NCBI RefSeq assembly: GCF_017834145.1
Contig: NZ_JAFIDA010000001.1
Span: 2,108,001 to 2,172,000, forward strand
Length of the DNA stretch: 64,000 bases
Direction of reading: 5' to 3'
DNA from: Leucobacter exalbidus
Lineage (GTDB): Bacteria; Actinomycetota; Actinomycetes; Actinomycetales; Microbacteriaceae
Shown here: piece after piece, positions 48,227-63,423 of the stretch
Numbering within the stretch: the stretch's first letter is position 1
Layout: the number at the start of each line of letters is the position of its first letter
Translations under genes and position numbers: made by a program
Notes under the pieces: model-generated
Told to the model about the DNA's origin: nothing
Databases searched by the model: none
Seen by the model: only the letters and a program-made list of their open reading frames with translations

Positions 48227-48299
48227 GCCGCCTTAGCTCAGTTGGTAGAGCGATTCACTCGTAATGAATAGGTCGCCAGTTCGATTCTGGCAGGCGGCT
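48227..48299 (+). tRNA. tRNA-Thr(CGT)
   Basis: A 73-nt tRNA. The acceptor GCCGCCT pairs with AGGCGGC (discriminator T); the D-arm has AGCTCAGTTGG; the anticodon stem is ATTCA/TGAAT with loop CTCGTAA, giving anticodon CGT (codon ACG); the T-arm is CCAG-TTCGATT-CTGG. CCA is not encoded. From 48261 onward its 3' part is identical to a copy at 63384-63423, so it is the prophage integration target. The gene stays functional because the att core restores the 3' end. Confidence 0.97.
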
Positions 48300-48563
48300 C
48301 GACTCGGCCCCCACCTCCTCGGTGGGGGCCGTTCCTGTTTCTAGCCACTCGACCGGCACGCCGGTAGCCTCCGACCATGCACGCAGGTACAACCCGCGCG
48401 GTGCGCGCTTGCCCTGCTCGTAGTTGGTTATCGAAGTACGCGAGATTCCCGACCGCTCGGCGAATTCGATCTGATCCAAGCCCGTTGTCTCGCGAGCTTT
48501 GCGAAGCCGATCCGCGAGCGTCCACTCGGGGATCATCGTTGCCATAGGCGCTAGTAGTGTCAT
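48255..48563 (-). CDS. XRE-family phage repressor, prophage (integrated) form
   Basis: A 102-residue HTH protein (DRLRKARETTGLDQIEFAER; SGISRTSITNYEQGKRAP). Its last residues, RLPESNWRPIHY, are the antisense reading of the att core, and Glu then TGA come from host tRNA sequence. In the excised circle the frame runs on into 63383-63321, giving 121 residues. The start is uncertain; I chose the ATG at 48563, where TAGAAT upstream would give a nearly leaderless mRNA (48572, 48545 and 48536 are alternatives). It is divergent from the early lytic genes and is the likely immunity repressor. Confidence 0.85.
   Translation of the reverse strand: MTLLAPMATMIPEWTLADRLRKARETTGLDQIEFAERSGISRTSITNYEQGKRAPRGLYLRAWSEATGVPVEWLETGTAPTEEVGAESSRLPESNWRPIHYE
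48261..48300 (+). repeat. attL core
   Basis: A 40-bp exact direct repeat of 63384-63423. It begins inside the anticodon and ends one base past the tRNA. The flanking bases differ on both sides, which sets the core length. On the minus strand it encodes the C-terminal residues of the prophage-form repressor. Confidence 0.95.
48305..48331. terminator. terminator at prophage left end, inside repressor frame
   Basis: CGGCCCCCACC pairs perfectly with GGTGGGGGCCG around TCCTC, followed by TTCCTGTTT. In the lysogen it would end tRNA-Thr transcription and protect the convergent repressor gene from antisense reading. Confidence 0.75.
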
Positions 48564-48570
48564 GTGACAC
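48557..48570. promoter_or_regulatory. operator-like half-palindrome over the repressor start
   Basis: GTGTCA-TG-TGACAC, a 6-bp-arm inverted repeat covering the proposed repressor start. It shares GTGxTCA with the longer palindrome at 48641. Possible autoregulatory site. Confidence 0.45.
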
Positions 48571-48640
48571 ATTCTAGCAAACGTGAGCAAAAGATCACAG
48601 GGCGGCGTGTCAATCGGCATATATTGCAATCGTTTGCCAA

Positions 48641-48658
48641 TGTGGTCATATGACCACA
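48641..48658. promoter_or_regulatory. 18-bp perfect palindrome, probable phage operator
   Basis: TGTGGTCATATGACCACA is its own complement. It lies between the divergent repressor and early genes and contains the ATG (48650) of the first rightward gene. A promoter-like TTGCAA (48624-48629) and TCATAT (48646-48651), 16 bp apart, overlap it. Best candidate for the repressor binding site. Confidence 0.65.
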
Positions 48659-48814
48659 CCCGCACTAATCACCACGAGGCAGCTTGCCGAGCGCCGAGGC
48701 TGCACTCGTCAGCATATTGCCCGCCTCGTGCGCGAAGGCAAACTCACCCCCGTAACGACACTCGACAACGGCGCGCACCTGTTCACCGAGGATCAGGGCG
48801 AGGTCACCAAGTGA
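48650..48814 (+). CDS. 54-residue winged-helix protein (Cro/excisionase-like)
   Basis: A short HTH protein beginning MTTPALITTRQLAERRGCTR, followed by QHIARLVREGKL and a Thr/Asp-rich wing, as in MerR-type excisionases and small Cro-like proteins. It is the first rightward gene, opposite the repressor, and its ATG sits in the operator palindrome. It overlaps the next gene by 4 bp (GTGA). It could be the lytic switch protein, the excisionase, or both; no other excisionase candidate is seen. Confidence 0.7.
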   Translation: MTTPALITTRQLAERRGCTRQHIARLVREGKLTPVTTLDNGAHLFTEDQGEVTK

Positions 48815-49641
48815 GCATCGACGCCAGTGCAATCGTGTGGGCACACTCCGAGGCCACCGGCTCCGAACTCCTCGTGCTCCTCGCAATCGCTGACCACGAG
48901 GGCGACGGCGGCGCATGGCCCGCAATGGAGACCCTCGCACGCCGAGGCCGCGTCACCCGAGACGCCGCCCGCAAGATCGTTCGCCGCCTCGAACTACGCG
49001 GCGAGATCACCACCGACCTGAACGGCGGCGGCGGCTTACGCACGGCAGCACACATGCGCACGAACCGCTACGAAGTCAACCTGAAATGCCCCGAATGGTG
49101 CGACCGAACAGCCCGTCACCGTGACCTCAGAGAGGTCAAAGCAGACCCCCCAGCCGCAGGAACTGCCCCCAGCCGGTCGGCTGGGAGCCCCCCAGCCGCA
49201 GGAACTGCCGAACCATCCATTAACCACCCTAATAAACAAACACCTAGTAGCTCTGAGGTTATGGCGCAGCCAGAACTCGAAATTGATTCAAATCAGAGTG
49301 GTGAAAATTACAGCGAATGGTCGCCCGCAGATCAGCTCGCCAAAGCTCGACGCCGCATGGTCGAGGCCCGCGACCCGAAGCCCAAGACATCACACACTCG
49401 CCCCGGCTTCACCGTGCCGCCCGCGCCGCATGTGCCACGCTTCGACTCCCGCAGCCTCGCACCAGCCCCCGAGCACGTCAGCCCCGAGCAGCAGGCCGCC
49501 AACGGAGCAGCTGCGCAGCTCCGATGCCCGGCTCAGGGCGGCAAGTACCGGCACCTAATCCCACCGGCCACCGGTACGCACTGCGCACGCTGCAACGCCG
49601 CAGCTCACGACATCATCAACAGCCAGGAGGCCCACGCATGA
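48811..49641 (+). CDS. phage winged-helix protein, probable replication initiator
   Basis: A 276-residue protein. An N-terminal winged helix (GSELLVLLAIADHEGDGG; METLARRGRVTRDAARKIVR) is typical of phage replication or regulatory proteins. A Pro/Ser-rich disordered middle contains two copies of PPAAGTA. The end has a small Cys/His cluster (RCPAQGGKYRHL; GTHCARCNA) that could bind zinc. I chose the GTG at 48811, coupled to the small HTH gene. Confidence 0.65.
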   Translation: MSIDASAIVWAHSEATGSELLVLLAIADHEGDGGAWPAMETLARRGRVTRDAARKIVRRLELRGEITTDLNGGGGLRTAAHMRTNRYEVNLKCPEWCDRTARHRDLREVKADPPAAGTAPSRSAGSPPAAGTAEPSINHPNKQTPSSSEVMAQPELEIDSNQSGENYSEWSPADQLAKARRRMVEARDPKPKTSHTRPGFTVPPAPHVPRFDSRSLAPAPEHVSPEQQAANGAAAQLRCPAQGGKYRHLIPPATGTHCARCNAAAHDIINSQEAHA

Positions 49642-49859
49642 CCACCAAGATCCGCGCCAACGTCACCAAGATAAACGGCTGGTGGCTCACTCTGGCATAC
49701 GTGACAGGTGAAAACCTCGTGCCCTCACAACACGCCTGGTCTAAATCTCACCCCGAGGCCATGCAAGCAGCACACATGCTCATATCCGACTTCAACGCCC
49801 GACTCATGGACGCCGTCAATGAGAGCCGCGCACGACGACGCAAGGAGTTCACAGCATGA
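49638..49859 (+). CDS. hypothetical phage protein (73 aa)
   Basis: Not recognised. A small protein with a Trp-rich strand pair (INGWWLTLAYVTGENLV) and a C-terminal helix. AGGAGG stands seven bases before the ATG, and the ends overlap both neighbours by 4 bp, which strongly supports translation. Confidence 0.75.
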   Translation: MTTKIRANVTKINGWWLTLAYVTGENLVPSQHAWSKSHPEAMQAAHMLISDFNARLMDAVNESRARRRKEFTA

Positions 49860-50065
49860 AGCGACGCCCCGCCAACGGCACCCAAGCCCGCATCCTCACC
49901 GAACTCGCGAAACGGCTAGACACCTACGACGATCCCGCCGCTCGCGCTCGCGCCGCCGGCATCCGAGGCAGGCTCCCCGACATCCGCCTCATGTCACACA
50001 AAGCCGCCCGGCAGATGGCCGTCGATGCAGCGATGCACCTGCAGGAACTCGAAGAGGACAACTAA
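49856..50065 (+). CDS. hypothetical phage protein (69 aa)
   Basis: Not recognised. A charged helical protein (RILTELAKRLDTYDDPAARA; then QMAVDAAMHLQELEEDN). Coupled to both neighbours: ATGA at its start and TAATG at its end. Confidence 0.72.
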   Translation: MKRRPANGTQARILTELAKRLDTYDDPAARARAAGIRGRLPDIRLMSHKAARQMAVDAAMHLQELEEDN

Positions 50066-50163
50066 TGGAACTCATGGCATCGACCGGGCTCGGCTCGTGC
50101 ATCGTGCTCGCGATCATCACCGGCTACATCTTCGCGCTCATCGGCAAGGGCGACACCAAGTGA
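50065..50163 (+). CDS. small single-span membrane protein (32 aa)
   Basis: A 32-residue protein with one transmembrane segment (GSCIVLAIITGYIFALIG) and a short basic end. The start shares a base with the upstream stop, and the end overlaps the HNH gene (GTGA). Function unknown. Confidence 0.6.
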   Translation: MELMASTGLGSCIVLAIITGYIFALIGKGDTK

Positions 50164-50456
50164 GCCGACACCACCGGGCGCAGAAGTGGAGCACGCACTC
50201 GCCCAAGCTCCGCAAGCTGATCGAGCCGCAGCTACCGCTGCCGTGCGTCGAGTGCCGTCGCCCGGTCATGCCCGGCGCGAAGTTCGATGTCGCGCACATC
50301 CAGGGCGCAGAGCACGGCGGCGCGCCTGCGCTCGGCAACGTCGGCCCGGCTCACCCTCAGTGCAACCGCAGCGCGGGCGGCAAGCGCGGTGCACAGATCA
50401 CAAACCAAGGTCGTCGCGCGGCGACCAACCGAAGCAAAGGCATTCGCAATTGGTGA
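50160..50456 (+). CDS. HNH endonuclease
   Basis: A 98-residue HNH protein. Zinc cysteines in PCVECRRP, the catalytic His in FDVAHI, then NVGPAHPQCNRSAGG. HNH proteins beside the large terminase assist specific DNA cutting in cos-type packaging. GTG start coupled to the upstream gene; it overlaps the terminase start by 4 bp. No small terminase gene is recognised; this protein or an upstream small gene might fill that role. Confidence 0.88.
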   Translation: MSRHHRAQKWSTHSPKLRKLIEPQLPLPCVECRRPVMPGAKFDVAHIQGAEHGGAPALGNVGPAHPQCNRSAGGKRGAQITNQGRRAATNRSKGIRNW

Positions 50457-52219
50457 CCGAAACCGAAACGCAAACACAAATTCCGCGCGCATTCTTTGAG
50501 ATGTGGCCGGAACCTTCGCCTGGGGGCAGCACGACTTTTCTCCCCCCACTCCTAAAAATTTGGGAGAAGAACAGAGCGCGCGGAATCACCCCGAGGTGGC
50601 ACGGAAAGCTAGACAATACGCCCGAGTTGAGGGCAGAGTTCCTACTCGGCGCATCACTCATGGGGTACGAGCTCGTCGACCTCAGCGACACCGCCTACAT
50701 TGACGAGCTCGCGCTCATGGATCCGCCGCGCATGCCGCTGCAGCCGCAGCAACTCCTCGTCGCTGACGCGATCAATGCCGGCACGAAGCGCAACGCGATC
50801 GAGATGCCGCGCCGCTCGTCGAAGTCGACGACACTGTTCATGCTCCTCCTCGGCCGGTGCGCATCACGCCCCGGCTACCGGGTGACGTTCTCCGCGCAGA
50901 CCGGCACCGCCGGCACCGAGATGTTCGAGGAGTGGGTGAAAGACGGCCTCGACTACGTGCAGCCGCCCGCCGACGCTGACCTCGCGCCCTGGATGCGTGG
51001 CCCGCGCGCGCTGCACACCAAAGCCGAGTCTCGGCAGATCGCCCTGTTCGGTGAAGTACTCGGCCCGGTCGACCTCGACGAGGGGCCGCGTAGCCTGAAC
51101 AGCTCGGGACGCACGTTCACGACGCGCGTGGGGAACTCGCGCCCCGGTATCCGCTTCGACAACCACAGCACGTTTCGTATCCTCAAGCCCGAGGCTGGCG
51201 CATACCGAGGCAAAGCGGCCGACGTGTCGTGGCTCGACGAAGCCCAAGAGATTGACCCCTCCGAGGGGAACTCGATTATCGCCGGTGTGCTCCCACTCCA
51301 GGACACCCGCCCCGGCGCCCAGATCATCGTGTCCGGCACCGCCGGTGAAGCCAAGGCCGGCCCTTTCTGGCTGTTCCTCGAACGCCTCCGCAAGGGGGAC
51401 CCCGCACTCGGCGGCGTCGACTTCGCCGCCCCCGTCACGACCGACTGGGACGAGATCGAAGACGAAGCCCAAGCGATGGCCCTCGTCAAGGCCAACCACC
51501 CCGGCGTGGACACCCTCACCACGATGGACGTCATGCGCGACAACTACCGCGACCCGACGATGGGCAAGCCCCAGTGGGCGCGCGAGTACCTCTCGATGTG
51601 GCCAGACGTCGGCCAGCTCTCAGTGATCACCGCCGCCGACTGGGACGCCACCGCGCTCGAACAGTGGCCAGACCGCCCCAAGCGTGTCGCGTTCGGCATG
51701 GACATCAAACCGGGCGGCGGCGCGGTCGCCGCGATCTGCGCAGCATGGCGCGACCGCGACGGCCTCGCATACATCGAGGTCGTCGACCATCAGCCCGGCA
51801 CCGCATGGCTCGTGCCCAGAATGCAGTACCTCACCCGTGAGCGATACCGCGGCAGCTCGGTCGCGTTCGACAAGATCAGCGAGGGCGAAGCGACCTACGT
51901 CGCAAGCCGGTACGCGCACCCGCGCGCCAAACTCCAGATCCAGACGTGGAGCGAGACCGCGGCAGGATGCGTCACGTTTATGCGCGAGCTCGAAGCCGGA
52001 ACGCTACGCCACTACGCCGCGCAAGGCGCGCTGAACGGGGCCGTCATGATCGCGAAGAAACGCGAGATCCGCGGCAACGACCGCGGCGTGTGGATCTTCA
52101 CCGCCGAGCAGCAGCAGGACGTCACGACGCTCCTCGCCGCGGTGCGCGCCCTGCGCAACTGGGACCAACATTACGCCCGCCCCGAGGCGGCAGAGCAGAC
52201 AGGAATCATCAGCGCATGA
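50453..52219 (+). CDS. phage terminase large subunit
   Basis: A 588-residue terminase. ATPase: Walker A-like MPRRSSKSTTLF, Walker B and catalytic carboxylates VSWLDEAQEIDP. C-terminal RNase-H-like nuclease: Asp in VAFGMDIKPGGG, then VAFDKISEG. It cuts and pumps phage DNA into the prohead through the portal. GTG start at 50453 overlapping the HNH gene. Confidence 0.9.
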   Translation: MTETETQTQIPRAFFEMWPEPSPGGSTTFLPPLLKIWEKNRARGITPRWHGKLDNTPELRAEFLLGASLMGYELVDLSDTAYIDELALMDPPRMPLQPQQLLVADAINAGTKRNAIEMPRRSSKSTTLFMLLLGRCASRPGYRVTFSAQTGTAGTEMFEEWVKDGLDYVQPPADADLAPWMRGPRALHTKAESRQIALFGEVLGPVDLDEGPRSLNSSGRTFTTRVGNSRPGIRFDNHSTFRILKPEAGAYRGKAADVSWLDEAQEIDPSEGNSIIAGVLPLQDTRPGAQIIVSGTAGEAKAGPFWLFLERLRKGDPALGGVDFAAPVTTDWDEIEDEAQAMALVKANHPGVDTLTTMDVMRDNYRDPTMGKPQWAREYLSMWPDVGQLSVITAADWDATALEQWPDRPKRVAFGMDIKPGGGAVAAICAAWRDRDGLAYIEVVDHQPGTAWLVPRMQYLTRERYRGSSVAFDKISEGEATYVASRYAHPRAKLQIQTWSETAAGCVTFMRELEAGTLRHYAAQGALNGAVMIAKKREIRGNDRGVWIFTAEQQQDVTTLLAAVRALRNWDQHYARPEAAEQTGIISA

Positions 52220-52428
52220 CCGGTATCGAGTTCGACGAATCAACCAACAACGTGCTCCTCGTCTGCCACGACTGCCACGGCACATGGCGGGCGTTCGCCT
52301 GGGACATGGACGACGCAGAGACACGCGCCGCCGCGCACGAGGAGCGCTGCCACAAGGAGTCGCGCATCGTTCGCGACCGGCTCATAGCGCGACGCGCCCA
52401 ACGCAAGAAACGACGCATAGTGGCCTAA
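52216..52428 (+). CDS. small zinc-ribbon-like phage protein (70 aa)
   Basis: A 70-residue protein with CHDCHG and a later HEERCH, a possible zinc site, and a very basic C-terminus (RLIARRAQRKKRR) that may bind nucleic acid. It overlaps the terminase stop (ATGA) and precedes the portal gene. Not assigned to a family. Confidence 0.65.
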   Translation: MTGIEFDESTNNVLLVCHDCHGTWRAFAWDMDDAETRAAAHEERCHKESRIVRDRLIARRAQRKKRRIVA

Positions 52429-52458
52429 TGTCAAGGGGCCGGGTGTCTGGTTGTTCTT

Positions 52459-53508
52459 ATGGCACTTCGGGATCTCTTTAAGCGACGCGGCGGCACTGGC
52501 ACCCCGGTACTCAACACACCGGGCGTCGGTGTCGCCGTGTCTGGCATTGCGTCGCCGTGGTCAGACGCGCAGCTCTCGGGCCTCGTCTGGTCTGACATCT
52601 TCGGCGAAGAACATCGGCCCGTCACGCGCGCCGATGCGCTCCGCGTGCCCTCAGTCGCTGCCGCCCGTAACCGCGTCATCGAGAAGCTCGCAGGCCGCCC
52701 CCTCGTCGACTACACGGCGACCGGTCGCACAGCCTCGCAGCCGTTGTGGATCGAGCGCACCGACAACACCCTCGCAGTGTCGCCGTGGCACCGCATGGCC
52801 GCGACCCTCGACGACCTCATGTTCTACGGCTGGTCGCTCTGGGCAGTGCAGCGCGCAAGCGACGGCAACGTCACCCAGGCACTCCACATCCCATTTGAGC
52901 GATGGAGCGCCGAGGCCGACGGCACGATTTTGTTCGACGGCGAAGAGGCACCCGCAGATCAGGTCGTGCTTATCCCCGGCCCTCACGAGGGAATCTTGAC
53001 CTGCGCAGCTGACACGATCCGCGCGGGCCTCGACCTCGAACGCGCATGGCGCTCGCGAGCCCGCAACCCGGCCCCGAACATCATCCTCGAAGAACGCGAG
53101 GACAACGGCATGACCGTCGAAGAAGCTACCCCATACGTCAAAGCCGTAGCAGCCGCGCGACGTAACCCCGACGGCGCGGTCATGTTTACCCCCTACAAGA
53201 TCAACGCCCGCATCGAGGGCAACAGCGGCGAGAGCTTCCTCGAATCAGCGCGTAACGCGATCCGCATCGACGTCGCCGCCTATTTTGATCTGACCGCGCA
53301 GTCAATCGAAGCGTCAAAGGCTCAGAGCACGCTCACCTACGAGACCGCCGAGACCGCCGAAGCACAGGCCACCGACCGCATGGCGTTCTGGTCTGAGCCC
53401 ATCGAACACCGGCTCTCACTCGACGACGTAGTGCCACGCGGCCACCGTATCCGCTTCAACTTCCACGCAGCAGACAATGCCCTCACCGGCACCCCAACGG
53501 AGGACTAA
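52459..53508 (+). CDS. phage portal protein
   Basis: A 349-residue HK97-type portal (VPSVAAARNRVIEKLAGRPL; a conserved ASKAQSTLTYETAETAEAQA near the end). It forms the dodecameric DNA gate at one capsid vertex. Somewhat short for the family, like other proteins in this compact phage. The start has only a weak RBS. Confidence 0.87.
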   Translation: MALRDLFKRRGGTGTPVLNTPGVGVAVSGIASPWSDAQLSGLVWSDIFGEEHRPVTRADALRVPSVAAARNRVIEKLAGRPLVDYTATGRTASQPLWIERTDNTLAVSPWHRMAATLDDLMFYGWSLWAVQRASDGNVTQALHIPFERWSAEADGTILFDGEEAPADQVVLIPGPHEGILTCAADTIRAGLDLERAWRSRARNPAPNIILEEREDNGMTVEEATPYVKAVAAARRNPDGAVMFTPYKINARIEGNSGESFLESARNAIRIDVAAYFDLTAQSIEASKAQSTLTYETAETAEAQATDRMAFWSEPIEHRLSLDDVVPRGHRIRFNFHAADNALTGTPTED

Positions 53509-53512
53509 CCCC

Positions 53513-55171
53513 ATGCAAATCACATTCGAGGCAAACACCCTCACCGCAAACGAGGACGACCGCATCATTAGCGGCGTGCTCGTCCCGTACGGTGAACAAG
53601 GCAAGAGCAACCTCGGTGCATTCAGTGTGCCGCGCGGCGCGTTCGAGATCCCCACCGACCCCTCGCAGATGGGCGTCAACGTCGAGCACGCCCGCGAGGC
53701 CGCATTCGGTCACGGCGTCACGATCACCGACAGCCCCCGCGGCGTCATGTTCGCCGCCCGCGCCGCCGAGACGCCCGAGGGTGACCAAGCCCTTGCCGAC
53801 GCCCGCAGCGGCAAGCGAACTCACTGGTCAGTCGAAGCCGCGAACGTCGTAGTTAAAGCAGGACAGGCCGTAGCAGGCCGGATCTTCGGCGCTGCACTCG
53901 TCGCGAAACCCGCGTTCCCGAGCGCCACCCTCATGGCCGCGTTCGAGGACGACGACCTCACCGAGATCACCACCGAGGACACCGACGCCGAACCAGTCGA
54001 GGGCGAGCCCCAGGAGACCACCGAGACCCACGTCGACGAATACGTCGACGAGGACGGGAACACCGTGACCGAGACCCGCACGACCACGACCGTGGTCGAC
54101 GGGAACACGACCACGATCACGACCGAAACCGAAATTACCGAGACCCCCACCGAGACCCCCGACCCCGCCCAGGAGGACAACATCGTGAGTACCCTCACCG
54201 CATCAGCACGCCGCGGATCCACCCGCCCCAACCGCAAGCCCGCGACCGAGCCCGATAGCCTCGGCCTGACCGCGCTCTGCTCGCTCATCTCCGACGCAGC
54301 CACGTCGCAGAACCACGGCACCCTCATGGCCGCGCTCACCGATATTCCGTTCACCGGCACGACGGGCAAGGCGCTCGGCGAAAAGACGAGCGTGCCCGAG
54401 TTTCTCGGCCAGCTATGGAATGGCTCGCCGAACCCGCGCCGCGTTATCCCGTTGCTCTCAAACGGCACACTGAACAGTATCAAGGCCAAGGGCTGGCGCT
54501 TCACCACCGAGCCCGACGTGACGGAATGGGCCGGTAACAAGACGGCAGTGCCCTCGGGCACCGTCGAGGTCGAAGAAGTTACCTACGACTTCCAGCGATT
54601 CGCGGGCGCGTGGGACATTGCACGCGAGTACATCGACTTCGGTGAGACCGAGGTTATCGAGCAGTTCCTGCTCAAGGCCACCGAGAACTACAAGAAGAAC
54701 ACCGACACGTGGGCGCTCACCAAGCTCAAGGAGTTCGCCACGGTCGCCGAGGTGGGCACGCTGCCCGCCGAAGTGCCCGAGGTCGTCGGCAAGCTCGTGC
54801 GCGGTGCGCTTCGCGTCATCACCGCCGACGCGCTGCCGACCTACGCGCTCATCGCACCCGACCTATACGAACAGCTCCTCTTCACGAAGAAAGACGACGT
54901 ACTCGCCTACCTCGAAATGAGTCTCGGGCTCTCAGAGGGCACGGTCGACAACTTCGCACTCGTGCCCGAGAAGCGCCTCGCCGCGGGCGAGGTACTCGTC
55001 GGAGCGAAGCAGGCCGCATGGTTCGACGAGCTCGGCGGCTCGCCGATCCGCGTCAACGCCCTCGACATCGCCAAGGGCGGCATCGACGAGGCCCTGTTCG
55101 GTTACGGCCGCTTCCGCGGCGAGTACGCCGACGCCGTGCAGCTCGTCACGAGCGCAGCGGTCGGAGGCTAA
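53513..55171 (+). CDS. fused prohead protease-major capsid protein
   Basis: A 552-residue protein. Residues 1-150 resemble HK97-family prohead protease (LVPYGEQGKSNLGAFSVPRG; NVEHAREAAFGHG with a likely catalytic His; THWSVEA). A Thr/Glu-rich linker follows, including TTTVVDGNTTTITTETEI. From about residue 225 it is an HK97-fold capsid (VPEFLGQLWNGSPNPRRVIP; FQRFAGAWDIAREYIDFGE; ending DAVQLVTSAAVGG). These are usually separate genes. The frame has no break. The linker would be the expected self-cleavage region. Confidence 0.88.
   Translation: MQITFEANTLTANEDDRIISGVLVPYGEQGKSNLGAFSVPRGAFEIPTDPSQMGVNVEHAREAAFGHGVTITDSPRGVMFAARAAETPEGDQALADARSGKRTHWSVEAANVVVKAGQAVAGRIFGAALVAKPAFPSATLMAAFEDDDLTEITTEDTDAEPVEGEPQETTETHVDEYVDEDGNTVTETRTTTTVVDGNTTTITTETEITETPTETPDPAQEDNIVSTLTASARRGSTRPNRKPATEPDSLGLTALCSLISDAATSQNHGTLMAALTDIPFTGTTGKALGEKTSVPEFLGQLWNGSPNPRRVIPLLSNGTLNSIKAKGWRFTTEPDVTEWAGNKTAVPSGTVEVEEVTYDFQRFAGAWDIAREYIDFGETEVIEQFLLKATENYKKNTDTWALTKLKEFATVAEVGTLPAEVPEVVGKLVRGALRVITADALPTYALIAPDLYEQLLFTKKDDVLAYLEMSLGLSEGTVDNFALVPEKRLAAGEVLVGAKQAAWFDELGGSPIRVNALDIAKGGIDEALFGYGRFRGEYADAVQLVTSAAVGG
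54171..54187 (+). promoter_or_regulatory. internal in-frame ribosome site for free capsid protein
   Basis: AGGAGG (54171-54176) stands eight bases before an in-frame GTG at 54185, exactly between the protease-linker and capsid parts. Translation from it would give a 328-residue capsid protein (54185-55171) without the protease. A perfect Shine-Dalgarno at this domain border is unlikely by chance. Confidence 0.65.
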
Positions 55172-55175
55172 CAGC

Positions 55176-55568
55176 ATGCCCGCGCCGCAGCCCGACTACG
55201 GGACACCCCGCGACTGGCACGACGTCGCGAGCCTACGCACGCCACCCGTCGATACGGTCGGCGACCAGCCCGCAGTATGGGAAGCCGCCGACCATATCCC
55301 CGACGCGCTCCTCGGCGATCTCCTCGACGTCGCCCGAGACAGCGTGATCGCGTTCGCCCCAGTGCTTCCCGAGGACTACCCCCTCGGGAAGTGCCCGGCG
55401 TCGTACCGTCTGGCACACCTCATGCAAACCCGCAACCTATGGAACGCGGTCGAGGTCGACAGCAGCGGCGGCTTCGGCGATGGGGAATACACCATCCGCC
55501 CGATGCCCCTCGACTGGATCATCAAGCAGATTCTTCGCCCCAAGACCGGCGTACCGGTGGCGCTATGA
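55176..55568 (+). CDS. head-tail connector protein (gp6-like)
   Basis: A 130-residue connector of the kind that follows the capsid gene; the conserved region is YPLGKCPASYRLAHLMQTRN. GGAGG precedes the ATG. It would bind the portal ring. Overlaps the next gene by 4 bp. Confidence 0.75.
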   Translation: MPAPQPDYGTPRDWHDVASLRTPPVDTVGDQPAVWEAADHIPDALLGDLLDVARDSVIAFAPVLPEDYPLGKCPASYRLAHLMQTRNLWNAVEVDSSGGFGDGEYTIRPMPLDWIIKQILRPKTGVPVAL

Positions 55569-55942
55569 ACACTTCCCAGGTACGCGCGCAGCTCGGCGCA
55601 GCTCTCACCGAGGTGCTCCCCTCGGGGAAGTACCACATCGTGTCAAACGTGGGAACCGTCGACCGACTCGCGAAGCGACTCGTGCAGATCGAACTCTCGT
55701 CGTTCTCCCCATCGAACAACGCCAAAGGTGTGCGCACCGTCGAACTCACCATTCACGTTGCTACCCACCTCGACGGCACCACCGCCGCCGCCGAGGACGA
55801 CGCCGAGGCAGCAGCATTCGAGGTATTCGCAGCCCTCGAAACGTTCGGGTGGGCGAACCCCACCCGCGCCGAGAAAACCGTTTACAAAGACAAATACCTC
55901 GGCTTCGACATCACTACCGAAATCCTCACGAAAAGGAACTAG
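55565..55942 (+). CDS. tail terminator/completion-like protein
   Basis: A 125-residue protein with an alpha/beta pattern (RLVQIELSSFSPSNNAKGVR; HVATHLDGTT; GFDITTEILTKRN). Position between connector and tail tube, length and coupling (ATGA) suit a tail terminator. Assignment is by synteny rather than motif. Confidence 0.6.
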   Translation: MNTSQVRAQLGAALTEVLPSGKYHIVSNVGTVDRLAKRLVQIELSSFSPSNNAKGVRTVELTIHVATHLDGTTAAAEDDAEAAAFEVFAALETFGWANPTRAEKTVYKDKYLGFDITTEILTKRN

Positions 55943-55945
55943 ACC

Positions 55946-56359
55946 ATGCCAGTAATTGATATTGCCCCGCTCTACATGGACGGTGCAGACCTGAGCATCG
56001 AGGGCGACGATTACGCCGCCCATATCTCGGGCGCATCATTCGTCCCCACCTCGTCGACGGTGACGTGGACAGGCGCGAAGCCTAACGCCACGTTCACACG
56101 TCAGAGCCGCGCGACATGGGTGCTCACGCTCAACTACGCGCAGGATTGGGAATCGGCGAAGTCGCTCTCGCAGTACCTCCACGACCACGAGGGCAAAGTC
56201 GTCGACATCATCCTCGCGCCAGTGACCGGCGGCAAAGCGTTCACCGCGTCGGTCACCATCGCTCCGGGAACCATCGGAGCAGAGATCAACACGTTCGGCA
56301 CTTCGACCGTGTCGCTCGGGCTGAACGGTCGCCCCGAGTACACCGTCATCGCACCGTAA
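55946..56359 (+). CDS. major tail tube protein
   Basis: A 137-residue, beta-rich protein (ISGASFVPTSSTVTWTGAKP; RATWVLTLNYAQDWESAKSL; ending in a glycine-rich strand). This matches the pattern of siphovirus tail tube subunits and their place in the gene order. Confidence 0.72.
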   Translation: MPVIDIAPLYMDGADLSIEGDDYAAHISGASFVPTSSTVTWTGAKPNATFTRQSRATWVLTLNYAQDWESAKSLSQYLHDHEGKVVDIILAPVTGGKAFTASVTIAPGTIGAEINTFGTSTVSLGLNGRPEYTVIAP

Positions 56360-56377
56360 CCGAGAGGACTAGCGGCC

Positions 56378-56887
56378 ATGCTCAGGATCGACGTGAACAG
56401 CTCACGCGAGCTACAGGCGTTGATCCTGAGCATTCGCAGGTCTGAGAAAGAAGTACAGGCCCAGATCCGCAAACACACCAAACCGATGGTGCAGTCGGCA
56501 TGGCAGCAGGGACTCGCGCAGCACGCGAGCACCCGGTTCGAGCACAAGGTACTCGTCGAGACGGCGCGCGTCGCCGTCTCGAATCAAAACGTGAAACTGA
56601 AATCGGGCGGGCTCGCGAAGAAGCTTTCGGGCGGTGGGCGTGCGCGCGAACTCTACGTCGCCGCTGAATTCGGAGCGGATCAAAACCGAGAAACCCAGTA
56701 CGGGCAGATCAGCAAGAACGGCAAACGATACAGCGTCACCCGCCATTCGGCCCGGCAGCTCCGCCCGCGCAACAAAAAGGGCTATGTGGTCTATCCAACC
56801 GCTGCCGAGATAATCCCCCGCCTCGCCGCACTCTGGACGCAGACCGCAGTGCGCACCCTCTACGAAGCATTCGAGAAGAAAGGCTAA
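56378..56887 (+). CDS. tail assembly/completion-like protein
   Basis: A 169-residue, very basic protein (LRIDVNSSRELQALILSIRR; a central FGADQNRETQYGQIS). It lies between the tail tube and tape measure genes, where tail assembly chaperones normally are, but no frameshift pair is evident. HK97 gp10-like function is possible. Weak assignment. Confidence 0.5.
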   Translation: MLRIDVNSSRELQALILSIRRSEKEVQAQIRKHTKPMVQSAWQQGLAQHASTRFEHKVLVETARVAVSNQNVKLKSGGLAKKLSGGGRARELYVAAEFGADQNRETQYGQISKNGKRYSVTRHSARQLRPRNKKGYVVYPTAAEIIPRLAALWTQTAVRTLYEAFEKKG

Positions 56888-56891
56888 CCCA

Positions 56892-58838
56892 GTGGCAGGC
56901 TTTGAAATTGATATTGCCGCAAACGCGCGCGACTTCCAACGCGGAACCAAGGATGTCGAAGCGGCTCTCGAAGATGTCGCCGACGCCCTCGACGACGTCG
57001 CGCGCGACGCCCAGCTCGCGGGCGAGGAAATGGGCGACGGACTCGGCGACGGTGCGCAAGACGGTGCAAAGCAAACCGCAAAGTCGACCGGCGATATGTC
57101 ACGCTCACTCAAAGAGGTGGGCGACGACGCCGAGCGCGCAGGCCGTGAGCTCGGCGACGAGATCGGCGACGGCGCGAAAGACGCCGAGCGCGCCACAGAG
57201 CGCGCCACCGACGATATATCGAAGTCGCTCAAAGACGTCGAGAAAGACGCCGAGCGCGCAGGCCGTGAACTCGGCGACGAGATCGGCGACGGCGCGAAAG
57301 ACGCAGGCACCAGCGTCGAGCGCGTCGAAAAAAGCTTCAAGGAACTCGCCGACGCATCCAAACGCTCCACCACGAAAGTGGGCAACGACCTCAAGACAGA
57401 CGTCAAACGAGGCACAGACGGTGCCAGCGAAGCCGTCGGCGAGTTCAAAGACGAAGCAATATCGAACCTCTCCGAGACCGTATCGAGCTTCCGCGGCGAA
57501 GCCGAGGACATCGCACAAATCGCGCAGGACACCCTCGGCGGCGTGGTCGCGAACCTCGGCCCGGTAGGCATGGCGGCAGGCGTCGCGGGCGCAGTCGGCA
57601 TCGGCCTTATCATCGCCGAAATCGAGAAAGCCAAAGAGGCCGAACAAGAATTTCGCGAGAACGTCGCCGAGCTGGCCGACACCCTCATCGAGACGGGCGG
57701 TGACGGTGCCGACGCAATCGCCGCTATAGCCGACCGTATGCGCGGCCTCGCCACCGAGACCGATAAAAACGCGATGGACTTCGACAAGCTCCGAGGCATG
57801 GCCGAGGACATGAAAGTTCCGTTCGCTGACCTCGCGCAGGCCTATGCATCCGGCGACGGCGACCTCCAAAAATATATTAAAAATCTTGACAAACGTATCG
57901 ACGCCGAGATTCTGGCCGCCCAGGAATCGACGAAGTACGTCGAGGGTGCCACCCTGGGCACCACCGCTCTCGGCCTCGAACTCGAAAAGCAGCGCGACCA
58001 GCTCAAGGGCGTCGCTGACCAATACAAGGAAGCGGGCGAAGACGCCGCCGCATGGGAAGAATCAGGCGGTGCAGCTATCGCGGCCCGCGCCGAAGCGATG
58101 GACACCCTCCAAGGGGAACTCGACGAGGCTATCGGCACATGGGGCGACTACATCGACGCCGAGACAGGCGCGGTCGACCCCGCTGGATACCTAGAGGGTA
58201 TGCAAGCGCGCATGGACGCGACCGCGAATTTCAACACCAACGTGCAAGACATGGCCACGGAGTTCGGCCTGACCCAGGAAGAGGTGCAGACGATCCTCGA
58301 CCAGGGCGTCGAGTTCGCGCCCATGCTGCAATCCATCCTGGATAGCGGCATGGGCGAGACCTACGCCGAGCAGGTGCGCTCCATGCTCGGCGGCGGGCAA
58401 GCGATCCTCGACGGCACCCCACTAAACTCTACGATCACCGCCGAGTCAAACACCGAGGACGCAGAAGCCGGCCTCGAAAAGACCCGCGCGACCGAGCGCA
58501 CCGCGACCGTCAAAGGCACCGCCGACACCCGCGACGCCGACCGGTCACTCGAAGCAACCCGCGCCAAGCGGCGCACGGCCACGATCACTGGACGTGCTGA
58601 CACCAGCGCCGCAGAACGGTCGCTCGAAGCGACCCGCTCGAAAACGCGCACCGCGATCATCGCCGCGAAAGCCGACACGACGGCCGCCCGCGCGAGCCTA
58701 GACGGCCTCACTAAAGCGCTCACGATCAGCGTGGGCGTGAACCTCTACCAGGCAGAGCGCGACCTCAACGCGTTCGTGACCCGTGCCCGCACCGCGATCG
58801 TCGACGTGCAAACCCGCAACGGAAAGGCCGTGCCCTAG
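56892..58838 (+). CDS. tape measure protein
   Basis: A 648-residue, helical, Ala/Glu/Asp-rich protein of tape-measure type, with a transmembrane-like stretch near residue 230 (GMAAGVAGAVGIGLIIAEI). Residues 80-135 contain repeats of ERAGRELGDEIGDGAKDA, and the C-terminus has EATRxKxRTAxI-type repeats. At about 0.15 nm per residue the tail would be near 100 nm (family rule of thumb). GTG start. Longest gene in the prophage. Confidence 0.85.
   Translation: MAGFEIDIAANARDFQRGTKDVEAALEDVADALDDVARDAQLAGEEMGDGLGDGAQDGAKQTAKSTGDMSRSLKEVGDDAERAGRELGDEIGDGAKDAERATERATDDISKSLKDVEKDAERAGRELGDEIGDGAKDAGTSVERVEKSFKELADASKRSTTKVGNDLKTDVKRGTDGASEAVGEFKDEAISNLSETVSSFRGEAEDIAQIAQDTLGGVVANLGPVGMAAGVAGAVGIGLIIAEIEKAKEAEQEFRENVAELADTLIETGGDGADAIAAIADRMRGLATETDKNAMDFDKLRGMAEDMKVPFADLAQAYASGDGDLQKYIKNLDKRIDAEILAAQESTKYVEGATLGTTALGLELEKQRDQLKGVADQYKEAGEDAAAWEESGGAAIAARAEAMDTLQGELDEAIGTWGDYIDAETGAVDPAGYLEGMQARMDATANFNTNVQDMATEFGLTQEEVQTILDQGVEFAPMLQSILDSGMGETYAEQVRSMLGGGQAILDGTPLNSTITAESNTEDAEAGLEKTRATERTATVKGTADTRDADRSLEATRAKRRTATITGRADTSAAERSLEATRSKTRTAIIAAKADTTAARASLDGLTKALTISVGVNLYQAERDLNAFVTRARTAIVDVQTRNGKAVP
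57126..57304 (+). repeat. direct repeat inside tape measure gene
   Basis: 57126-57184 and 57246-57304 are near-identical 59-bp copies at a 120-bp period, with one difference seen (G/A at 57149/57269). Recombination between them would shorten the tail ruler by 40 residues in frame. Confidence 0.85.
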
Positions 58839-59212
58839 TGAGTGTCATCGTCTCGTCGACCGCGTTCGACACACCCCCGGTCGCCCCCATCCTCGTCGAG
58901 GGCTGGGAAACCTCACGCGCTGCACGAAACGTCGTGCACGAGCGCCTGTTCAACGCTGACCCCATCGTGTCTATCCGGCCCGCGACCACCCGCAAGGGCA
59001 CGCTCCGCTATCTGTTTGCGACCGCGAGCGCCGCGCAAGCCTGTTTCGAGATGCACGCCGCTCAGGCCGTTTTTACCGTCACCACGACAATCTCCGATGA
59101 ACTCCCCGTCACCCTGCGCTACGTCGCCACCGACGAGGTAAAACAACTCCTCGACCCTGAGACCTCGCTCGTCACCATCATCGAAATCCCATACCGAGAG
59201 GCACCCCAGTGA
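58838..59212 (+). CDS. minor tail protein (distal-tail-like)
   Basis: A 124-residue protein (AFDTPPVAPILVEGWETSRA; HERLFNADPIVSIRPA; TLRYLFATASAAQACFEMHA). It starts one base inside the tape measure stop and overlaps the next gene by 4 bp, in the usual place of distal tail proteins. No diagnostic motif. Confidence 0.55.
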   Translation: MSVIVSSTAFDTPPVAPILVEGWETSRAARNVVHERLFNADPIVSIRPATTRKGTLRYLFATASAAQACFEMHAAQAVFTVTTTISDELPVTLRYVATDEVKQLLDPETSLVTIIEIPYREAPQ

Positions 59213-60333
59213 GTACACTCATCGACTCGCACGAGATCATCGCGCGCATAGCAGGCCGCGAGGTCGAGGTAATCGACGCATCGCTCACCCTCGACCGTGG
59301 CTGGGCACCCTACGTGCAGGGCACGCTCACAATCCGCGACCCTCAGATTCGCGGCCTGCTCGACCCGCGCCAGCGCCCCCGCGTACACCTACAGCTCACC
59401 CGCCGCTACTCCGCATCACGCACCCTCGGCTATCTGTCAACCCAGTTTGCCGGGCAGACCATCGCCGCGATGTCGGCAGCATGGACAGGGAAAACGTTAG
59501 GGCAGGTATCAGCGCTATACCGCGAGGTATGGAACCCCGGCGGCCGCTGGGGGTCAGACGAGCCCCTCGCCGTGTCCTCGTTCCTGACAGGCTCGCGCCG
59601 ACGACTCTCCGAGCCTGACCTATGGGAGATCAGTTTTCAGGGCGGCGAGTACCCGCTACAGACCCGCGCCTCAGAGACGATGCGGTGGACATCGCAGAAC
59701 GCAACCGTGCGCGGCCTCGTGAACGATGTTCTCGCGAGGTTCGGATACACGCCTCTACAGCCCGGCACCGCGAACGCGACCGTGGAGGTCGACGAGGACG
59801 GCGAGGGGCCAGTCTGGGAGGCTGGCGTCACGGTGTGGGACTACCTCAACCCCATCGTGCAGGCCGCCGAGCTGCGGCTGTATTGCGACGAGAACCACCT
59901 CTGGCAGCTCGTCGGCGACGACGCAAACGCGGCCGGGTCGCACGACCTCGGCCCCGAAGCGATCGAGTGCGAGGACTCATGGAGTGCCGACGGCAGATTC
60001 TTTGACGGCGCGATCCTGATCTATGAGTGGGAGACCCGCAACGGCACCGCGAAAAAGGCCCTCGACACCTACAAGGTCGGCAAAGTCGCGACGTATGTCG
60101 AGCACATCGCGGGCAAGCTCACACGGCCCGGCCGCGCGAAGCGCATCGTCACCCGAGCGGTGCGCCGTGCGCTCGCGCAGACATGGGAATCAGTCGCCGA
60201 CTATCAACTCAGACCAGGCCAGAAAGTCACCCTCCCGGCGGGTGAGACAGGCCGCATCGACTCGATCACCTGGACATATCCCGACGCCCGCATGACCGTA
60301 CAGGTCATCGACGTCACTACCCCCGCACCCTAG
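59209..60333 (+). CDS. tail hub/baseplate-like protein
   Basis: A 374-residue protein. An N-terminal beta domain (VEVIDASLTLDRGWAPYVQG) and a middle region resembling tail-hub proteins (RWTSQNATVRGLVNDVLARF; WDYLNPIVQAAELRLYCDE) suggest a gp27-like hub at the tail tip. No enzymatic domain is seen. GTG start, coupled upstream. Confidence 0.65.
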   Translation: MSTLIDSHEIIARIAGREVEVIDASLTLDRGWAPYVQGTLTIRDPQIRGLLDPRQRPRVHLQLTRRYSASRTLGYLSTQFAGQTIAAMSAAWTGKTLGQVSALYREVWNPGGRWGSDEPLAVSSFLTGSRRRLSEPDLWEISFQGGEYPLQTRASETMRWTSQNATVRGLVNDVLARFGYTPLQPGTANATVEVDEDGEGPVWEAGVTVWDYLNPIVQAAELRLYCDENHLWQLVGDDANAAGSHDLGPEAIECEDSWSADGRFFDGAILIYEWETRNGTAKKALDTYKVGKVATYVEHIAGKLTRPGRAKRIVTRAVRRALAQTWESVADYQLRPGQKVTLPAGETGRIDSITWTYPDARMTVQVIDVTTPAP

Positions 60334-60345
60334 AAAGGCATCATC

Positions 60346-60843
60346 ATGGCACTCTTCACCCGCTACAAGTCGACCGACCTCGCCGACCCAGTACACACGC
60401 TCCTCAACCGGGCACCCCTCGAACTCGAAGCCGAACTCGAAGCCGCCAACGCCGCCATTTTCGGCCTCAACGTGAACGCCGACATGCTCAACGTGACGCG
60501 CACCGCAACCATCGACAGGATCGAATCCCGTGTGAGTTTCTCAGGCAATTCGTGGGTCGAACGTCGCGGGAACACGGTCGCGTTCACGCTCGGTGTTACG
60601 CTCAACGTCGCCGGTCTGATCGACTCCGGCGCCTATTTCCTGATCGGTCAGATCATGCCGACGCAGTTCCGGCCGACGCAGACCCGCTACCTGACATCGC
60701 GGGCAGCATCGGCGGGCTTCGCGCCCGCCGAGATTCGACCGAACGGCGAGGTCTATCTGCGAAAGTTCTCGAACTCGCCGCAGCCGTCGGCCGTCACGCT
60801 CGAATTCTCCGACACCTACCTCGGGGCGGGCAACATCGTATGA
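60346..60843 (+). CDS. putative tail tip/receptor-binding protein
   Basis: A 165-residue protein (ADPVHTLLNRAPLELEAELE; MPTQFRPTQTRYLTSRAASA). It is placed after the hub and before the endolysin, where small phages keep their receptor-binding protein. If so, it is the only host-recognition protein. Assignment by position. Confidence 0.5.
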   Translation: MALFTRYKSTDLADPVHTLLNRAPLELEAELEAANAAIFGLNVNADMLNVTRTATIDRIESRVSFSGNSWVERRGNTVAFTLGVTLNVAGLIDSGAYFLIGQIMPTQFRPTQTRYLTSRAASAGFAPAEIRPNGEVYLRKFSNSPQPSAVTLEFSDTYLGAGNIV

Positions 60844-61487
60844 CCGCCCTCGACCAGTGGGCGGGCGGTGTCGCGGGGCGTTTGGTCGACCGCGATGCTG
60901 CCCCCGCGCAGTACATCTACCAGTGTCACGACGTGTGGCTCGACTACCTCTACGAGGTCATCGGCGGGCAGCCTGGCGACGGGCACGCGCCCGGCGACGA
61001 GGGCTTCACCGTCGAGGTGTGGGCACGGTTCCCGCACCACCGGCCGCGCCTCGCGACCCTGTTCACGAAGCATTACGGGTCGCGTGGTATCCGCCCCGGC
61101 GATGTCGTGTTCTGGCCCGTCGGATCAGCCAACCACCCGGCATCGCACGTCGTGGTCGCACTCACCGGCATCGCACCGAACGGCACGTTTGAGTGCATCA
61201 CGCAGAACCCCGGCCCCGCCGTGCGCGCCACCCTATCCATCTACCAGGTCGCAGGCTATCTGCGACCCATCACCGACCCCATGGAGGAACCCGTGACCCA
61301 GGAAGAAATCCAGAAGATCGCCGAGGCATCGGCACGCGCGACCGTCGACCGGCTGCTCGAAACCAAGATCACGATCAGCCCGGCCGCCAAGGGCCAGAAG
61401 ATGACCATCGCGGGCATTCTCGGGACGATGCCCCGCCACATCGGCACGATCCGGTCACGCCTCGCGACGCTCCTCGACCGCAAGTAA
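60840..61487 (+). CDS. CHAP-domain endolysin
   Basis: A 215-residue protein. The CHAP catalytic Cys is in IYQCHDVWLDYL and the His in PASHVVVALTGI, with GDVVFWPVG between. The C-terminal 70 residues after NPGPAVRA may bind wall or membrane (PVTQEEIQKIAEASARATVD). CHAP enzymes cut peptidoglycan peptides or amide bonds. ATGA overlap with the upstream gene; holin-like genes follow, forming the lysis cassette. Confidence 0.85.
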   Translation: MTALDQWAGGVAGRLVDRDAAPAQYIYQCHDVWLDYLYEVIGGQPGDGHAPGDEGFTVEVWARFPHHRPRLATLFTKHYGSRGIRPGDVVFWPVGSANHPASHVVVALTGIAPNGTFECITQNPGPAVRATLSIYQVAGYLRPITDPMEEPVTQEEIQKIAEASARATVDRLLETKITISPAAKGQKMTIAGILGTMPRHIGTIRSRLATLLDRK

Positions 61488-61492
61488 CCCGC

Positions 61493-61711
61493 GTGTCTGA
61501 TCCCATCATCATCGTGATCATCACCACCGCAGCGGGCGGCGTCTCGGCCGCCTACCTGCGCATGTGGCGACGGATCATCGCGCTCGAAAAATCAGAGCGG
61601 CGTCTGTGGTGGTGGGCACGCATCATCGCAGACCACTACTACCGATACCGGCGCGAGGGCAGCCCCGACCTACCCCCGCCACCCAGCCCCGACGACAAGG
61701 AAACCACATGA
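61493..61711 (+). CDS. small membrane protein, holin-like
   Basis: A 72-residue protein with one N-terminal transmembrane segment (PIIIVIITTAAGGVSAAYL) and a basic, Trp-rich cytoplasmic part ending in a Pro-rich tail. Directly after the endolysin, GTG start, coupled to the next gene. Probably part of a two-protein holin system. Confidence 0.65.
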   Translation: MSDPIIIVIITTAAGGVSAAYLRMWRRIIALEKSERRLWWWARIIADHYYRYRREGSPDLPPPPSPDDKETT

Positions 61712-61899
61712 CTGCCAAAGAAATCATCCGCCTCGCGATCTACGGCCTAGCCGCCGTGACCGCTGCCGTGCTCGCGATCCTCGCGTACCTCCGAGGCGAC
61801 ACCGCGACCGTGACCGTCGCGCTGGGCTGGATCGCGACCAACGTGCTATCGGTGTTCAACGTCGGCAATACCTCGACCGGCGGCGATCACGCGGCGTAG
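61708..61899 (+). CDS. holin-like protein (two transmembrane segments)
   Basis: A 63-residue protein with two hydrophobic segments (LAIYGLAAVTAAVLAILAYL and VTVALGWIATNVLSVFNVG) joined by a charged turn RGDT, as in actinophage holins. ATGA overlap upstream. Last rightward gene, before a strong terminator. Confidence 0.72.
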   Translation: MTAKEIIRLAIYGLAAVTAAVLAILAYLRGDTATVTVALGWIATNVLSVFNVGNTSTGGDHAA

Positions 61900-61906
61900 G
61901 AACAGC

Positions 61907-61938
61907 AAAGACCGGCTACTCGAAAGTAGCCGGTCTTT
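61907..61938. terminator. bidirectional terminator between lysis and lysogeny modules
   Basis: AAAGACCGGCTACT pairs perfectly with AGTAGCCGGTCTTT around CGAA. Suited to stop both the late rightward transcript and the leftward lysogeny transcript. Confidence 0.85.
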
Positions 61939-61951
61939 GGTGGTCCTGTAA

Positions 61952-62272
61952 TCACCGGTCGTCTACTGTGGGCTCCCAATCGTAACGATTGTCTTTGTAC
62001 GCTTGACGGATAGCGTCATCGAGTTCCCAGAGCCCATCGCGGATCTCTTCGTGCAGCCTGTGGATCGCATCCGTGTCGGTGCTTGTCAACCAGCAAGGTT
62101 TTACCGGATCATGTTCCCACTCTGAGATCGTCCCCGTGGCCAAATGACGAGATTTAATCATGCGCCCATATGTGTTCGCTTCCCAAGCTTTTATGAACAC
62201 CTTGTCTCCATCCTGTTCGACGCGGTATACAACCCAGGGCCACCTACGGGCGAGTGATTTTCTTCGAGCCAT
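61952..62272 (-). CDS. orphan prophage protein next to integrase (106 aa)
   Basis: Not recognised. A cytoplasmic protein with a basic start (ARRKSLARRWPWVVYRVEQD) and an acidic helical end. It lies 9 bp downstream of the integrase on the same strand and its base composition is lower in GC than the phage genes around it, a sign of a separately acquired cargo gene. It could be an exclusion or anti-phage function expressed from the lysogen, but no motif supports this. Confidence 0.65.
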   Translation of the reverse strand: MARRKSLARRWPWVVYRVEQDGDKVFIKAWEANTYGRMIKSRHLATGTISEWEHDPVKPCWLTSTDTDAIHRLHEEIRDGLWELDDAIRQAYKDNRYDWEPTVDDR

Positions 62273-62281
62273 GAGTTGATC

Positions 62282-63139
62282 CTATGCGGCAAGCCTCAGG
62301 TTCAGCGATAGCGAATTGATTGCAGTCACTTTGGCACTCCATTGAGTGTCGGTGTAAATCTGAGTAGTCGATATATCGACGTGCCTCATGAGTTCCTGCA
62401 CAACTCGCATGTCGGCCCCGCCCTGCACCAGTTCGGTGCCGTATGAATGGCGCAGCATATGGGGCGTGGCCTGATCGTACCCGGCGCGCACCATTGCACG
62501 CTTGATTGCCTGCCCCACGGCCTGCCTGCCGACGCACCCCTCGACGGTGTACGCCGGAAACCAGAAACCCGTGCGCGGCATCGTCTCTGCAAGCGCGCGA
62601 AGATCGGGGTGCAGTGGCACGATCTCGACCGCGCCACCCTTACCAACGATCAAGAGGGTATCCCGGTCGAGGTCGATGTCCTCACCGCGAATCTTCGCGA
62701 TCTCGTGCACCCGCATACCCGCGAGTACCGCGAGCAGAACATAGGCCCGCGTGCGCGCACGGTTCGCGGCCGCGTACACCGACCGCACCGCAGCGATCGA
62801 AAGCGGCCGGGGCCGTGTCCTGGCCCGCTTCGGGCGCGGTGTATCGAGGGTCGGATCGTCGCCGCGTACTTTCGCCCGGATCATCCACACGCAGAACGCG
62901 CGCACGGTCGCGTGGTAACTCGCTTTGCTCGACGATGACAGACCGCGCCGCCCGCAGTAGGCAACGATGTCGCGCGGGGCGAGGGTGCGCGGTGTCGCGC
63001 CCGTCGTCGCGAAGAGGTGGCGCATCGTGCCCTCGCGCTCGCCGATCGTTCGGGCCGAGAGGTCTTGCGCTTCCTGCCACGCCTGCCAATCATCGAGCAG
63101 CGCGTCGGTGTCGTCCCAAAGGGTCGGTGTAGTCGTCAT
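62282..63139 (-). CDS. phage tyrosine integrase with ssrA-like C-terminus
   Basis: A 285-residue tyrosine recombinase. Catalytic residues: Arg in LAGMRVHEIAK, the HMLRHSYGT box, the later His near LMRHVDIS and the Tyr in TTQIYTDT. The N-terminal core-binding SAM-like domain is present. The extreme C-terminus is NLRLAA, whose last three residues match the ssrA degradation tag. It recombines the 40-bp tRNA-Thr core. In the circle it lies downstream of the repressor and the 59-residue gene on the same strand. Confidence 0.93.
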   Translation of the reverse strand: MTTTPTLWDDTDALLDDWQAWQEAQDLSARTIGEREGTMRHLFATTGATPRTLAPRDIVAYCGRRGLSSSSKASYHATVRAFCVWMIRAKVRGDDPTLDTPRPKRARTRPRPLSIAAVRSVYAAANRARTRAYVLLAVLAGMRVHEIAKIRGEDIDLDRDTLLIVGKGGAVEIVPLHPDLRALAETMPRTGFWFPAYTVEGCVGRQAVGQAIKRAMVRAGYDQATPHMLRHSYGTELVQGGADMRVVQELMRHVDISTTQIYTDTQWSAKVTAINSLSLNLRLAA

Positions 63140-63141
63140 GA

Positions 63142-63321
63142 CTAATTCTCACGCTCGCGCAGGTCGACGACCTCGTGATCGTAAACCCACGTCGGGCGAG
63201 GCGCGACAGTGCGATCGCCCCGGTGCTCGCCGTCGTGCCCGGCCTCGCGATAGCACTTCACGCGGAACTGCCCCCACTCGTCAATGAACGCGGCGGGCGA
63301 CTTGCAAACGCGCGCGCCCAT
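63142..63321 (-). CDS. 59-residue protein coupled to viral-form repressor
   Basis: A small protein (MGARVCKSPAAFIDEWGQFR; VKCYREAGHDGEHRGD) with two Cys and several His, possibly metal-binding. Its ATG overlaps the stop of the circular-form repressor as TGATG, and its own stop is 2 nt before the integrase start. In the circle it joins repressor and integrase in one operon; in the lysogen it is cut off from the repressor promoter. Function unknown. Confidence 0.7.
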   Translation of the reverse strand: MGARVCKSPAAFIDEWGQFRVKCYREAGHDGEHRGDRTVAPRPTWVYDHEVVDLREREN

Positions 63322-63423
63322 CAGACGCTCACCGTCCAAAGTGCGACTAGCTCGTCGACGGTATCGGGGCATCCGATTACCTTGTAATGAATAGGTCGCC
63401 AGTTCGATTCTGGCAGGCGGCTC
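63321..63423 (-). other. displaced 3' end of the viral-form repressor gene
   Basis: On the minus strand this reads the att core (RLPESNWRPIHY) and then a further 20 codons beginning KVIGCPDTVDE and ending VALWTVSV before TGA. In frame it continues the repressor gene only when the phage is circular. In the lysogen it has no phage promoter or start. Confidence 0.8.
63384..63423 (+). repeat. attR core
   Basis: Exact 40-bp copy of 48261-48300, the displaced 3' half of tRNA-Thr. Confidence 0.95.

Follow-up and report, generated by a model that had tools for sequence, protein, structure and literature searches.

A probable integration-dependent immunity system in a small prophage of Leucobacter exalbidus

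The window analysed here, a stretch of 64,000 nucleotides from Leucobacter exalbidus, holds a prophage whose repressor gene runs across the attachment site of the phage. This raises the question of whether immunity depends on integration, as a sequence-only reading of the locus had proposed by analogy with mycobacteriophages. The attachment site, the repressor frame on both sides of it, the related prophages of the genus and the C-terminal ends of repressors and integrases were compared.

Attachment cores and the repressor frame

The prophage (48261..63423), recognised from a direct repeat, its reading frames and a capsid-protease fusion, comprises a 15,123-bp unit (about 15.1 kb) plus a second copy of the attachment core. 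The integration target is a tRNA-Thr(CGT) gene on the plus strand (48227..48300, predicted with ARAGORN), the 3' part of which forms the 40-bp attL core (48261..48300), and the 40-bp attR core (63384..63423) is identical to it at 40/40 bp. A tRNA-Thr(CGT) gene in another genome of the genus (G026, locus L083) carries the window core at 40/40 positions. Its left flank is similar to that of the window (75.7% over 1306 bp), and its right flank is similar over 287 bp (80.1%), with the onset 103 bp past the core compared with 288 bp in the window. Both flanks adjoin each other at this locus, which on this comparison is read as the unoccupied site, the window having some extra sequence. The core-end pattern was present in 35 of 54 Leucobacter genomes (that of the window included), as two copies in 8 and as one copy in 27; the two-copy genomes were the six prophage carriers together with G021 and G027. 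In the latter two, paired core ends of the tRNA-Thr type lie 156 and 298 bp apart (G021:C4:206022-206199 and G027:C18:24248-24567), and these are possible tandem tRNAs or remnants of lost elements.

In the lysogen, the repressor frame on the minus strand (48255..48563) runs from the ATG at 48563 to HYE-TGA at 48255 inside the tRNA gene, which supplies the stop, giving 102 aa. When the excised circle was rejoined in silico, the same frame read HYK-VIGCPDTVDELVALWTVSV-TGA, giving 121 aa with the stop at 63321-63323, and the C-terminal part of this attP form across the rejoined core was HYKVIGCPDTVDELVALWTVSV-TGA. The attP core sits within the repressor reading frame, and the 3' end split off by integration (63321..63383, minus strand) comprises 20 codons and TGA, reading KVIGCPDTVDELVALWTVSV in the attP form. 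The sequence-only reading had placed the core inside the repressor frame with 102 residues in the lysogen and 121 in the phage, and the 40-bp cores and both frames bear this out. The HTH_3 match (Pfam, E 1.3e-14) covers residues 20-74, well ahead of the core-encoded residues, and the protein matches the transcriptional repressors of PHROG 2328 (E 2.2e-29). The predicted start at 48563 was preferred because homologues have a similar length ahead of the HTH region.

No second repressor was found among the 22 distinct ORFs of the prophage scanned with Pfam, PHROGs or both (ORFs 50053-50163 and 61487-61711 were not scanned separately), and so the separate complete repressor that the earlier reading had named as counter-evidence did not turn up in them. 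The only other DNA-binding HTH matches in these ORFs were a replication-initiation-like protein and a 54-aa gene (48650..48814, plus strand), which is divergent from the repressor, lies in the Cro/excisionase position, and matches the excisionases of PHROG 4691 (E 7.4e-5) and Pfam AbiEi_4 (E 2.9e-6). Two candidate operators were noted. The putative site TGTCATGTGACA (48558..48569), an interrupted inverted repeat with 5-bp arms and a 2-bp centre, spans the repressor start, and the putative site TGGTCATATGACCA (48643..48656), a perfect palindrome, spans the start of the divergent gene; no 12-bp perfect palindrome was common to the five sister prophages described below.

In the attP form, the stop shares nucleotides (TGATG) with the ATG of a 59-aa ORF (63142..63321, minus strand), and a tyrosine integrase of 285 aa (62282..63139, minus strand, C-terminus -NLRLAA) begins 2 nt after this ORF at the ATG at 63139, exactly as had been described. 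Repressor and integrase share a strand, the integrase following the repressor with one 59-aa ORF in between, and such spacer genes have precedents. The 59-aa ORF had no match in Pfam or PHROG, and none beyond its own genome among the prophage loci compared. Downstream of the integrase, a minus-strand ORF of 106 aa (window 61952-62272) had no match in Pfam, PHROG or the phage collection. The TGATG coupling had been offered as proof that the long form is a real gene; this argument was set aside, TGATG and 20 open codons being weak by themselves, and the comparison of six prophages, which is stronger, was used instead.

Sister prophages and the tail as coding sequence

At an integrase match threshold of E <= 1e-20, 15 of the 54 genomes were retained. 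Six of these, that of the window included, form a close clade, in which the integrases of the five sisters are 65-73% identical to that of the window. All five sister prophages are located at tRNA-Thr(CGT) and have their layout in common with the window. The attP frame joined in silico was open in G015, G050 and G040; in G006 the repressor and integrase sides are on separate contigs, and each was open when read singly, unjoined. The two G017 cores mismatch at positions 15 and 31; when joined with the attR core unchanged, the frame meets a stop. Since this attR core is identical (40/40) to the core of tRNA-Thr(CGT) at the matching locus of genome G003, the host most likely contributed the differing attR bases, and the crossover is predicted to lie within the first 14 nt, so that the attP frame of the phage would be open.

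The repressor stop overlaps the ATG of the next ORF in five of the six clade prophages and a TTG in G040, and the repressor tails of the clade extend 19-23 residues beyond the core. Before the stop in the lysogen, the frame gains EGTALPLS in the sisters compared with a single E in the window. A metagenomic relative (L100) likewise has a stop within its attR core, and its tail belongs to the same type as that of the window; no second core copy was found on its 7,282-bp contig. In all five sisters (L035, L036, L037, L038 and L039), an HTH gene similar to GMA5 gp18 lies between repressor and integrase and immediately precedes the latter; 49 phage records, mostly of Arthrobacter, contain relatives of it. 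The window operon lacks this gene, and the sisters also have other small ORFs in this interval.

The tails fall into type 1 (CPDTxxELxxLWxV) and type 2 (CPDxVPxWMVEAVxAR), the latter found in the four sisters other than G017, with G015 divergent. The peptide score between the tails of the window and L100 was reached by 0 of 2000 shuffles, as was that between the window and G017, although these shuffle and codon comparisons are not a formal selection test and the tail sequences are related. Over the 20 codons, window and L100 have 6, 7 and 13 differences at codon positions 1, 2 and 3 (6 synonymous and 11 non-synonymous codons), and over codons 8-17, a stretch picked post hoc, 2, 1 and 8 differences (6 synonymous and 3 non-synonymous). 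For window and G017 the differences were 4, 8 and 7, with no third-position excess (1 synonymous and 10 non-synonymous codons). Between the types, the score of the window against the four type 2 tails was reached by 6, 7, 46 and 75 of 2000 shuffles, that of G017 by 0 to 273, and that of L100 by 233 to 1380, which is at chance. Taken together, these comparisons support a tail that is coding within each type; its conservation is clear in some pairs and weak in others. A tblastn search of phages with a 32-residue junction peptide (E up to 10) returned 32 records; the 15 listed all had E >= 0.4 and none was informative on the tail, and 10 of the 15 were annotated, some partly, as tRNA-Thr.

C-terminal ends of repressors and integrases

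The attP form of the window repressor ends in -TVSV. None of the six clade repressor tails ends in -AA (the ends are -AR, -SV or -AS), and a typical ssrA-like signal was ruled out on this ground. The integrases of the clade, on the other hand, end in -LAA in 6/6 cases, with -LRLAA in the window. That the repressor tail is unlike -LAA had been seen correctly in the sequence-only reading, but the -LRLAA end of the integrase had been overlooked. Over the 27 places read (G047 counted once), 19 integrases end in -AA, relative to a background of 31/336 mechanically called ORFs (at least 200 aa, from 28 loci, some integrases among them) and of 3/44 ORFs in the window.

At 21 integrase loci, the stretches examined were searched for repeats of 18 bp or more linked to a tRNA gene; 7 loci had one, and none was found at the other 14. 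A repressor-like frame crosses the core at all seven repeat-bearing loci, which come from the genus and the family and are located at tRNA-Thr, tRNA-Val and tRNA-Ala. Their attP tails end in -AA at four loci and in a single A at two, with neither at the remaining one (G276). Among 11 repressors of named phages, whose ends were read from the proteins with attP not mapped here, eight end in -AA (GRU3, Gusanita, Charlie, GMA5, Jeanie, Brujita, Obliviate and Twister6) and three do not (Phayonce, Barebow and the HTH protein of PensacolaC28). Several Leucobacter prophages of 15.6-16.8 kb (L042, L043, L044, L045 and L081, with L041) are located at tRNA-Val(TAC) or tRNA-Ala(TGC) and have other HTH repressors with attP inside the repressor gene; a V(T/I)P(L/M)R motif in 4/5 of those tails resembles the V(I)PLR of Brujita and Phayonce.

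These ends bear on the main alternative, in which the repressor simply happens to read through the 3' end of the tRNA gene, the two forms do not differ in stability or activity, and there is no switch. This structural overlap would fit a tail that lacks -AA throughout the clade and shows weak conservation from one type to the other. A comparable gene order with no recognisable tags, there with attP outside the repressor, is reported for Arthrobacter phage Galaxy (PMC5513430) and is also in favour of this alternative. Conservation of the tail within each type, however, argues against the overlap reading, as do the -LAA ends of all six integrases and the related systems at three different tRNAs, where four of seven tails end in -AA and two more in a single A; the overlap without a switch is considered quite unlikely. 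A decayed prophage, in which the layout is a relic and excision and the long form no longer occur, would be compatible with data from one assembled genome of an isolate but is very improbable given that the 40-bp cores are identical and that the frames for integrase, repressor, terminase, portal and capsid are all open.

Related phages and the proposed switch

The capsid-protease fusion matched 87 phage records and PHROG 2263 (E 4.5e-58), with about 32-35% identity to 15-17 kb phages of Arthrobacter, Gordonia and Microbacterium among the 15 listed of the 87. On the basis of these matches, the prophage is placed by sequence among the small actinophages (Clusters CW, AN and kin). Charlie (Nclasvirinae) was among the best integrase matches, and the repressor match with most of the query covered was GRU3 of Cluster CW (98% of the query, 41% identity). 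Cluster N and CW phages have been named as users of integration-dependent immunity (PMC4557955, PMC5559632), and the definition of the system, the integrase tag and the stop taken from host sequence have been described (PMC9934374, PMC9262239). Giles had been cited as a further example, a claim that was not upheld: in the available part of PMC4557955 the clusters named are G, I, N and P, and Giles appears only as a phage with a known repressor.

The Gordonia phages of Cluster CW, of about 17 kb, use this immunity at tRNA-Lys, compared with tRNA-Thr in the window; GRU3, GMA5, Jeanie and McGonagall resemble the window in having a small temperate genome with attP in the repressor beside a tyrosine integrase, and in GMA5 a further gene also separates the repressor from the integrase (PMC5559632). 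Nothing related to that gene, gp18, is present in the window operon. The tags are reversed, since the GRU3, GMA5 and Jeanie repressors end in -TAA, -AAA and -VAA and the integrases in -IVA or -AVA. In BPs (Cluster G), attP again lies in the repressor, with a 103-residue prophage form and a 136-residue viral form (PMC4557955), compared with 102 and 121 residues here. By description, the BPs integrase is also tagged as in the window, whereas the tail is a destabilising one of 33 residues, instead of 20, and the site is another tRNA. Gordonia phage Obliviate has attP in the repressor at tRNA-Thr, as in the window, with a 49-kb genome and a repressor tail ending in -DAA as differences (PMC4929511); a small gene overlaps the repressor end ahead of its integrase, which ends in -LAA. 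Small Bifidobacterium prophages were reconstructed in silico with 18 extra residues bearing ssrA-like tags (PMC6109161). The tag is typical rather than universal, as integration-dependent repressors without ssrA-like tags have been reported: MabC, MabN, MabO and MabH of M. abscessus have attP in the repressor and an untagged viral form, as in the window, but their integrases are also untagged (PMC8092301), while that of the window keeps -LAA.

Taking these comparisons with the frames, the window likely holds a small temperate Leucobacter actinophage whose immunity depends on integration. In the phage state, the repressor, the small gene and the integrase would form one leftward operon, presumably read as a single transcript, and the repressor would bear a 20-residue C-terminal tail encoded past attP. 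Integration into tRNA-Thr would replace this tail by one host-encoded residue and the TGA of the tRNA gene, and most likely it removes the tail in this way and frees a stable repressor. The long form is expected to be inactive or unstable, while the trimmed form would shut the divergent early promoter; the integrase is probably kept scarce through its -LAA end, with a host protease predicted to read the tags. Against this reading, the long and short forms of BPs show similar DNA binding (PMC4557955), so a tail need not block binding.

The proposal that the mycobacteriophage switch works here holds for the anatomy (attP in the repressor, a tRNA site and sister prophages), whereas the novelty claimed for it does not, as small phages and tRNA-Thr sites have already been reported. 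The switch type is a described one to which this prophage adds another host genus; small-genome, tRNA-Thr and untagged-repressor cases are already published. Among the papers listed by the literature searches, none reported integration-dependent immunity in Leucobacter. A known lysogeny switch would thereby extend to this genus, in which repressors unrelated to each other have the same layout at tRNA-Thr, tRNA-Val and tRNA-Ala.

That the tail acts as a degron of a different kind is a fair hypothesis, already raised for other prophages. The accounts of the published systems compared here did not describe an integrase that carries the tag beside a repressor that lacks it. It is conceivable, though rather doubtful, that in this clade another conserved signal (type 1 or type 2) has taken the place of -AA on the repressor while the integrase kept -LAA. 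If so, repressor and integrase would be under two host pathways, or the tail would act by non-proteolytic means. A clade with the classical tag on the integrase only offers a useful comparison for asking which task a repressor tail must perform. The attP-in-repressor layout was also observed in an 8.2-kb element at tRNA-Thr(CGT) in genome G184 (L070:10121-18317), in which the repressor tail ends in -GAAA and the integrase in -LAA; this element may be a satellite or a prophage in decay.
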